Shown one piece after another: positions 50,675 to 58,813 of a DNA stretch of 64,000 nucleotides. How positions within the stretch are numbered: the stretch's first letter is position 1; the number at the start of each line of letters is the position of its first letter. Below the pieces are notes generated by a model. That model saw nothing but the letters and a program-made list of their open reading frames with translations, was not told where the DNA came from and ran no database searches. A program made the translations under genes and the position numbers. The stretch lies in the NCBI GenBank assembly GCA_030263285.1, contig SZYB01000002.1, positions 310,001 through 374,000 on the forward strand, written 5' to 3'. Origin of the DNA: Bergeyella sp. (GTDB lineage: Bacteria > Bacteroidota > Bacteroidia > Flavobacteriales > Weeksellaceae).

Positions 50675-51541
50675 ATGACCTTATCTATGACGGGCTTCGG
50701 GAGAAGCGAAGGAGTACTGGAGGAAAAAAAAATAAGTGTTGAGGTAAAATCGCTTAACAGTAAATCTTTGGACATGAGTATTCGCGTACCTCCGCACTTT
50801 AGGGAAAAAGAGATGGAAATCAGGAAGTTCTTAAATGACAGGCTCATCAGAGGAAAGATAGACTGTTATATAAGTTGTGAGATGCTAGGGGGACAAAGGG
50901 GGGTAAAAATTGACAAGGATATTGTTCGTTCCTATATTGAGGATCTTAGAGATTGTGCGGGGGATGGACCTGATATAGAGTACCTGAAGATGGCGGTGCG
51001 TTTACCGGAAGCTCTTTCTTCTAAGCCCGGAGAACTCGAACGAATAGATGAGGAATCCTGGGATTTTCTAAAAGATCTCATGGATGAGGCGTGCCGGAAG
51101 CTGGAAGACTTTAGAAAAAAAGAAGGAGAAGTGCTTAGAAATGATGTATTGGGAGCAGTAGAGAAAATATCAACTTATTTGGGAGAGGTTTTGCCATATG
51201 AAGAGCAGAGAATCGCGGGAATCAGAGAGCGGTATGAGAAATACCTCAAGGAATTCGAAAATATAGACGAAGGTAGATACTATCAGGAGTTAATGTACTA
51301 CACAGAAAAACTGGATATTTCGGAAGAGAAAGTGCGTCTGGAGCAGCATTTGTTCTATTTTCGGGAGGTGCTTGATCGGGAGGAATGCAATGGGAAAAAA
51401 CTGGGATTCATAGCGCAGGAAATAGGGAGAGAAATTAACACCCTTGGATCTAAGGCAAATCATGTGGAAATACAAAAACTGGTGGTGAAAATGAAGGACG
51501 AACTGGAGAAAATAAAAGAACAATCTCTAAATATTTTGTAA
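50675..51541 (+). CDS. yicC: YicC family RNA-processing protein
   Basis: 288 residues, the usual size. The N-terminus MTLSMTGFGRSEG and the C-terminal block LGFIAQEIGREINTLGSKAN are diagnostic. YicC proteins are endoribonuclease-like and act on small RNAs in some bacteria. It is 5' to gmk, a very common pairing; a 17-bp tandem repeat separates them. Confidence 0.92.
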   Translation: MTLSMTGFGRSEGVLEEKKISVEVKSLNSKSLDMSIRVPPHFREKEMEIRKFLNDRLIRGKIDCYISCEMLGGQRGVKIDKDIVRSYIEDLRDCAGDGPDIEYLKMAVRLPEALSSKPGELERIDEESWDFLKDLMDEACRKLEDFRKKEGEVLRNDVLGAVEKISTYLGEVLPYEEQRIAGIRERYEKYLKEFENIDEGRYYQELMYYTEKLDISEEKVRLEQHLFYFREVLDREECNGKKLGFIAQEIGREINTLGSKANHVEIQKLVVKMKDELEKIKEQSLNIL

Positions 51542-51543
51542 TC

Positions 51544-51589
51544 TCAAAAAACTTAAACAATCAAAAAACTTAAACAATCAAAAAACAAG
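51544..51589. repeat. 17-bp tandem repeat (2.7 copies) directly before gmk
   Basis: TCAAAAAACTTAAACAA occurs at 51544-51560 and 51561-51577, then a partial copy TCAAAAAACAAG at 51578-51589. It fills the space between the yicC stop and the first family-like codons of gmk, and contains a stop in the gmk frame (51571-51573). Likely a recent slippage duplication. Confidence 0.9.
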
Positions 51590-52161
51590 ATTTCTTAAAG
51601 GGTAAAGTAATAATTTTTGCGGCGCCCTCGGGAAGTGGAAAAACTACACTCGTAAGGCATGTTCTTGAGGTGATCCCCGAGCTATGTTTTTCTGTTTCTT
51701 GTACTACAAGAGCACCCAGGAGAGAGGAAAAACACGGGCGGGACTACTATTTTCTCTCGCCGGAAGTCTTTAGAGAAAAAATATCTGCGGATGCTTTTGT
51801 AGAGTATGAAGAGGTATATCCGGATCAGTTTTATGGAACGCTTTGGTCTGAGGTAGAAAACATATGGGAACAGGATAAAATAGTCATCTTTGATGTGGAT
51901 GTGAAAGGCGCCATTTCGCTCAAAAATATTTTTGGTAGCAGAGCGCTTTCACTTTTTATATCTCCTCCCTCGGTAGAGGAGCTGAAACGAAGGCTGATCA
52001 ATAGAAATACGGATAGTGCAAAGAGTATAGAGATCCGGGCAAGAAAGGCAGCAAAAGAGATGAAGTACAAAAATTCTTTTGATGCGGTAATTATCAATGA
52101 AAACTTAGACAGAGCAAAGGCAGAGGCAGAAAAAAAAATCCGAGAATTTTTAGACCGATAA
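51577..52161 (+). CDS. gmk: Guanylate kinase lacking a canonical start codon
   Basis: The reading frame opens after the stop at 51571 and encodes about 195 residues. The P-loop IFAAPSGSGKTTLVRH is followed by SVSCTTRAPRREEKHGRDYYF with the GMP-binding residues. Gmk makes GDP from GMP and is essential. No ATG, GTG or TTG lies in frame before the P-loop. The first usable GTG (51670) would cut it off. The only near-cognate start before the P-loop strand is ATC at 51577, used here as a provisional start. Either initiation is non-canonical, or the start region has been rearranged. Confidence 0.85.
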   Translation: MKKQDFLKGKVIIFAAPSGSGKTTLVRHVLEVIPELCFSVSCTTRAPRREEKHGRDYYFLSPEVFREKISADAFVEYEEVYPDQFYGTLWSEVENIWEQDKIVIFDVDVKGAISLKNIFGSRALSLFISPPSVEELKRRLINRNTDSAKSIEIRARKAAKEMKYKNSFDAVIINENLDRAKAEAEKKIREFLDR

Positions 52162-57322: not shown

Positions 57323-58813
57323 ATGAAAAATCTAAAATTAGGAATTACGGCTTTGGGTCTCGCGATCTCATCAGCTGTTTTTGCCCAAACTACTACCAAT
57401 CCATGGTTGATTGGGGTAGGAGCTCAGGCGGCAAATTATCCAGCTGCTACGGGAGTGAAAGATCTTTCCAAGGAGACAGTAAAAAGGTTATACAGAGTTA
57501 GAAACTGGTCGGTAGCTCCTCCCTTGTCAAAGCTTACTGTGGCCAGAAATTTGGGAAAACTTTTTGTTGTAGACTGGCAGACCTCTGTGGGGAACATTAG
57601 TAACAAGAGGATACAGACTCCACAGAACTTCTTTTTGATGACAGGATTAGGTCTGCAGTTTAAGTTTAACGGTTTGTGGAATGAAAACCACTGGTTTGAT
57701 CCGTATGTTAGAGTGGGAGGGAACTATTTAAGAAGTTCTTATCCGGAAAACATAGGTTTTCCTCTGGTGGATAAAAATGGACATACCGTAACAGCTTTTA
57801 ACAAAGACGGAGATGTAGCCGCCAAGAAAAACTTTTTCACTGTAAATGCAGGAGCGGGCCTTAATGTTTGGTTTACAGAAAAATTTGGTTTAGGAGCCCA
57901 GTTAGACTATGTAAACACTTTTGCAAAGACTTCTGTTGTTAATGATTTTTTTCAGGGTTCAGCCTCTTTGCTTTTCAGATTGGGTAACAATGACAGGGAT
58001 AAGGACGGTGTACCGGATAAGGAAGATAGATGTCCGGATACTCCAGGTTTAGCTGAGTTTAAAGGATGTCCAGACACCGATGGTGATGGGGTTCCTGATA
58101 TTGACGATGCGTGCCCTGATGTTGCTGGACCGGTAGAAAATAAAGGTTGTCCTTGGCCGGATACAGATGGTGATGGAGTATTAGATAAGGATGATGCATG
58201 CGTTGATGTTCCTGGACCTGTCGAGAATAATGGTTGTCCTTGGCCGGATACAGACGGTGATGGTATACTAGATAAGGATGATGAGTGTCCTACAGTTCCT
58301 GGTAAGCCAGAGTACAAAGGATGTCCAGGTCCAAACGGACTTACCGTTTCTACGGGAGAGGCTTCTACTACTACCCTTAAAGATATTCTGTTCGATTTTG
58401 ATAAAGCCACCATCAACCCTAGGTCTAATGAAAAATTAGATAAAGCGGCTGAGCTTATCAAAGCAACGGTGAATGAGAACTTTATTGTAGTGGGTATGAC
58501 GGATAAAAAAGGAAATCCAGCCTATAACCTTAATCTTTCTAAGAGAAGAGCTGCAGCTGTAGTGAAAGCTCTTGAAGCAAGAGGGGTTCCGGAAGACAAA
58601 CTTAAGTCTATAGGAATAGGATCTCAAGAGGCTACAGTCCCTGCTAGTGCTTCTAATGAAGAAAGACAAGTGGACAGAAAAGTGGTAGTGAGAGCGATTT
58701 CCGGTGATGAATGGCTGACATACAAAAAGTCTGACCTTCCTCCAACTCCTGTTCATAAAAAAGCGACTCACAGAAAAGGAGCAGGCAAAAAGAGAGTAGT
58801 TAAAAAGAAATAA
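57323..58813 (+). CDS. OmpA-family outer-membrane protein with four TSP3 repeats and basic tail
   Basis: 496 residues with a signal peptide (MKNLKLGITALGLAISSAVFAQ). A barrel part (about 25-215) is followed by thrombospondin type 3 calcium-binding repeats (DRDKDGVPDKEDRCPDTPG, then PDTDGDGVPDIDDACPD and DTDGDGVLDKDDACVDVPG, DTDGDGILDKDDECPTVPG; about 226-335). The OmpA peptidoglycan-binding domain follows (ILFDFDKATINPRSNEKLD and LSKRRAAAVVKALEARG). It ends in a lysine- and arginine-rich tail of about 20 residues. It anchors the outer membrane and is probably a major surface protein. Clean terminator downstream. Confidence 0.93.
   Translation: MKNLKLGITALGLAISSAVFAQTTTNPWLIGVGAQAANYPAATGVKDLSKETVKRLYRVRNWSVAPPLSKLTVARNLGKLFVVDWQTSVGNISNKRIQTPQNFFLMTGLGLQFKFNGLWNENHWFDPYVRVGGNYLRSSYPENIGFPLVDKNGHTVTAFNKDGDVAAKKNFFTVNAGAGLNVWFTEKFGLGAQLDYVNTFAKTSVVNDFFQGSASLLFRLGNNDRDKDGVPDKEDRCPDTPGLAEFKGCPDTDGDGVPDIDDACPDVAGPVENKGCPWPDTDGDGVLDKDDACVDVPGPVENNGCPWPDTDGDGILDKDDECPTVPGKPEYKGCPGPNGLTVSTGEASTTTLKDILFDFDKATINPRSNEKLDKAAELIKATVNENFIVVGMTDKKGNPAYNLNLSKRRAAAVVKALEARGVPEDKLKSIGIGSQEATVPASASNEERQVDRKVVVRAISGDEWLTYKKSDLPPTPVHKKATHRKGAGKKRVVKKK
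57994..58330 (+). repeat. TSP3 repeat DNA within the second ompA gene
   Basis: A coding repeat region of four to five Asp-rich units. Two adjacent units share long near-identical DNA 87 nt (29 codons) apart, e.g. TTGTCCTTGGCCGGATACAG at 58147 and again at 58234. Identity at DNA level suggests recent duplication or selection on codons. Confidence 0.85.

Follow-up and report, generated by a model that had tools for sequence, protein, structure and literature searches.

The gmk locus

The window, by which we mean the whole stretch of 64,000 nucleotides of Bergeyella sp. DNA analysed here, belongs to a genome of 1.68 Mb that is assembled in 30 contigs and 99.99% complete. It carries yicC and, downstream of it on the same strand, gmk, whose nearest likeness is found in Chryseobacterium, Bergeyella and their relatives. 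The yicC gene ends with the TAA at 51539-51541, and the gmk frame is open from 51574 to 52161. The features of the locus are the following:

50675-51541, + strand: yicC (endoribonuclease YicC-like), located upstream of gmk in the same orientation (PF03755 and PF08340, ORF)
51544-51586, + strand: 17-bp tandem repeat TCAAAAAACTTAAACAA x 2.5, A-rich leader of gmk (TRF score 86, 100% matches)
51560-51598, + strand: frame of 12 codons opened by the 5' copy of the duplicated ATC, with the stop TAA at 51596-51598
51571-51573, + strand: TAA, final in-frame stop upstream of gmk, within repeat unit 2 (frame reading)
51577-51579, + strand: ATC, presumably the gmk start and the most likely candidate (context at the 96th percentile of homology-supported starts)
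51577-52161, + strand: gmk coding sequence if read from the ATC, 194 codons and stop (TIGR03263; PF00625, 1.3e-42)
51595-51597, + strand: TTA, rival start, aligned with the TTG start of the G008 gmk (context at the 62nd percentile)
51598-51600, + strand: AAG where most relatives carry ATG (M-x-KVIIF; alignment)
51622-51645, + strand: P-loop A-P-S-G-S-G-K-T (frame reading, homologues)

Integrity and copy number of gmk

The predicted gmk product matches TIGR03263 as a full-length Gmk with 202.4 bits (cut-off 160.45) over the model positions 1-177 of 180, and its identity to relatives reaches 64%. At near-invariant columns it shows three deviations, compared to up to five in other gmk genes. The P-loop is intact; the original prediction was right about its presence but had placed its beginning at 51616, where the preceding beta strand ends. 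The gene is real and not decaying, since gene decay is contradicted by the full-length match above the cut-off, the intact P-loop and deviations that stay inside the range of the family.

An intact second gmk elsewhere in the genome, which had been named in advance as one of the observations that would speak against a non-canonical start, was not detected in the assembly by a search with the TIGR03263 profile. As this search returned a single full match, the only other one being partial with 21 bits, a second copy was rejected as an explanation.

Absence of a canonical start codon

Following the TAA at 51571-51573 the gmk frame reads ACA ATC AAA AAA CAA GAT TTC TTA AAG GGT AAA GTA ATA ATT TTT and continues into the P-loop with GCG GCG CCC TCG GGA AGT GGA AAA ACT. 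Between this stop and the P-loop it contains none of the codons ATG, GTG, TTG and CTG. The reading of the codons thus confirmed the original claim that the frame is free of ATG, GTG and TTG up to the P-loop, and none of the three is available for a full-length gmk product. The first canonical in-frame codon is GTG 51670, located 3' of the P-loop, and a start at this codon would lose the motif. Across all frames, a single canonical triplet occurs from the yicC stop to the P-loop, a TTG that lies out of frame at the P-loop edge. A fusion of yicC and gmk by frameshift was considered as well and rejected, since a shift into the gmk frame runs into the TAA at 51571.

This layout had been called unusual for an essential gene, and the comparison with relatives agrees: a canonical codon precedes the P-loop in 109 of the 109 other gmk loci read, and the non-canonical start is accordingly not conserved among them. 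Our search for publications on gmk start codons found nothing relevant.

Candidate start codons

The best-supported candidate by context score is the near-cognate ATC at 51577, as had been proposed for this gene. According to a position matrix derived from 260 homology-supported starts of the same genome, its context ranks at the 96th percentile of these starts and above 99.93% of 2,803 internal ATC codons; since the matrix measures mainly A-richness and reaches an AUC value of 0.77 in telling starts apart from internal ATC codons, this score is taken as support and not as proof. The codon has an A at position -3 and is directly followed by AAA AAA, the predicted fold leaves the leader unpaired between 51550 and 51589, and the gap of 35 nt to the yicC stop is compatible with coupling. 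However, with a start at the ATC the K of KVIIF would be preceded by nine residues, giving an N-terminus approximately six residues longer than is usual in the family. Most relatives begin their gmk one to four codons before this K; the relative L015 also has nine residues there. Furthermore, none of the 109 other gmk begins in this way.

A start at the homologous position, UUA 51595 (a former UUG with its third base changed), or at an adjacent codon would give M-KGKVIIF and hence a product of the family's usual length. The TTG AAA GAA AAA of the G008 gmk aligns with TTA AAG GGT AAA in our sequence, and TTG is used at this position by several relatives and accounts for about 10% of the homology-supported starts in the genome. 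However, UUA has two mismatches to the initiator anticodon and its context is average, and to our knowledge UUA is not an established start codon. We regard a start at this position as unlikely.

Possibility of a sequence error

The true start may also be canonical and located at or near the homologous position, with a one-base error in the consensus sequence concealing it: a single-base change would convert any of ATC, TTA and AAG to ATG or TTG, and TTA and AAG occupy the start positions of relatives. However, in the sampled part of the genome none of 349 conserved reference genes was found to be broken by a frameshift or premature stop, the orthologue set comprising 114,676 aligned codons. 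Assuming that one in 20 substitutions makes a stop, this result bounds the substitution errors at an estimated rate of roughly 2 per 10,000 bases, from which the odds of an error on one given start codon would be less than 1 in 1,000. A similar error would moreover be required for the methyltransferase-like gene with a CTG start described below. Judged from the assembly alone, gmk is a single intact gene in a sequence without signs of error, and an erroneous consensus at its start appears rather improbable. Set against this, true switches are very rare and count against the AUC start as well, since in closely related genomes only 3 of 61,358 ancestral AUG starts were found to have become CUG or AUU (PMC5622118).

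Codons next to the P-loop and the tandem repeat

The codons AUA 51610 and AUU 51613 immediately 5' of the P-loop are both known as rare starts (PMC5472188, PMC13009471). Their use in gmk seems very unlikely, however, as the product would lack the conserved K-V in the first beta strand, the contexts, at the 50th and 9th percentile respectively, are average or poor, and no relative begins there without an upstream start.

The tandem units cover the normal start region (51544-51586) and unit 2 contains the gmk-frame TAA, both as originally described. Among perfect non-coding arrays with a period of 8-30 and a score above 75, only two were found in 744 kb of the genome, and the gmk leader, being one of them, is thus unusual but not unique. 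Another perfect short non-coding tandem repeat of this genome has 2.1 copies of 19 bp (G000:C12:136530-136568; L121:16530-16568). A dispersed repeat element was rejected, since no additional copy of the 17-bp unit with 0 or 1 mismatch occurs in the genome; the repeat sequence was also not detected in viral contigs. Repeats of other kinds were observed at window positions 58106-58326, where an 87-bp tandem repeat in a coding region encodes aspartate-rich units of the D-x-D-x-D type, and at G000:C12:114493-115220 (L120:14493-15220), where an array with a period of 77 bp and about 9.5 copies has a CRISPR-like look with long repeats.

Computed variants with 0, 1, 2 or 3 repeat units all lack a canonical codon in the gmk frame, and the last ATC sits in the gene-proximal partial copy, the gmk-frame codons being identical with at least one unit. 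Slippage has therefore neither created nor removed a canonical start, and a small indel would restore none, because no frame of this region offers a canonical triplet other than the TTG at the P-loop edge. The suggestion that slippage or an indel moved the real start and left gmk broken or phase-variable is hardly probable for an otherwise intact single-copy gene, even though a fresh perfect repeat sits over the start region.

The duplication doubled the A-rich leader together with the ATC. The TAA at 51596-51598, which closes the 12-codon frame, coincides with the position of the homologous gmk start.

Other non-canonical starts in the same genome

The survey of start codons compared 1.144 of the 1.68 Mb of the genome with 1.2 Mb of genome G024 and comprised 320 reciprocal orthologues, among them four short loci of the family that carry gmk and served as added references. 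According to our reading of the candidate list, three of the 320 have no canonical codon where the homologues start, namely infC, a methyltransferase-like gene and gmk. In infC (G000:C12:95886-96458, minus strand; L114) the conserved start reads ATA GCA CAG, as in Bergeyella, and there is no canonical N-terminal start. Most readable infC genes of the Flavobacteriales likewise have ATA, or more rarely ATC, in front of an alanine codon and no canonical codon upstream. The methyltransferase-like gene (G000:C12:347203-348000, plus strand; L132:7203-8000) has CTG AAA AAG at the conserved start, the corresponding codons being ATG AAA AAA in relatives and TTG AAA AAA in Bergeyella. The reverse survey of 224 pairs gave one clear case in G024, again infC, plus one Cas1-like candidate.

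The genome encodes three CAU tRNAs, one of which is a normal-looking initiator with C1-A72 and a GGG/CCC anticodon stem, arguing against an altered or recoded initiator tRNA. The absence of IF3 was rejected as an explanation because infC is present.

Proposed initiation of gmk translation

On balance, we think it probable that gmk is a working single-copy gene started at a non-canonical codon, most likely AUC 51577, which would be decoded by the ordinary CAU initiator tRNA. This proposal draws on the missing in-frame canonical codon in an intact single gene, the context of the ATC, the leader predicted to be mostly unpaired, the unbroken reference genes and a lineage that begins infC at AUA or AUC and has a CTG at the conserved start of the methyltransferase-like gene. 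Ribosomes of flavobacteria initiate independently of Shine-Dalgarno pairing. Initiation at AUC 51577 may be aided by the unstructured A-rich leader which the 17-bp repeat forms, with its A at -3 and the AAA AAA behind the start codon. Perhaps ribosomes that terminate on yicC, 35 nt further upstream, contribute as well, by translational coupling. The outcome would presumably be a lower, IF3-sensitive synthesis of Gmk, similar to infC.

One could further speculate that the AUC start places gmk under the control of initiation fidelity by IF3 in a lineage whose initiation works without Shine-Dalgarno pairing, that the duplicated A-rich leader acts as a compensating enhancer and that the GTP supply thereby tracks the levels of initiation factors, a scenario to which we assign little probability.

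Gene finders limited to ATG, GTG and TTG would truncate the essential gmk to the part 3' of the P-loop. If the AUC start is true, gmk represents a natural test of near-cognate starts on ribosomes that ignore Shine-Dalgarno sequences and have only an A-rich leader to rely on, and also of whether IF3 tunes nucleotide synthesis.

Comparison with known systems

A non-canonical gmk start is an uncommon but precedented way to begin a gene. The infC gene encoding IF3 is known to start with AUU, AUA or AUC (PMC5472188, PMC13009471), the codon being ATC in Streptomyces (PMC5472188). It resembles gmk as an essential gene with a near-cognate AUH start, which is ATA in this same genome. However, infC is autoregulated through IF3 and its start is conserved, whereas the gmk case is limited to this genome among those read.

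In Staphylococcus aureus the metabolic or regulatory genes citZ and ccpN start with AUA and cvfC1 with AUU, these AUH starts giving about 10% of the output of AUG (PMC13009471). The infC, cvfC1 and ccpN genes of S. aureus possess extended Shine-Dalgarno motifs, whereas the leader of gmk is merely A-rich, which is what one expects in Bacteroidota. The Streptomyces sigR gene, which starts with GTC, is likewise a real gene with a start outside ATG, GTG and TTG, but it encodes a regulatory sigma factor, its ribosome-binding site is strong and its control by IF3 is proven (PMC5472188).

For Flavobacterium johnsoniae, a published study describes Kozak-like initiation for ordinary starts, and what it reports as favourable, an A at -3 and an unstructured leader, is also present at the putative AUC start of gmk (PMC6847099).
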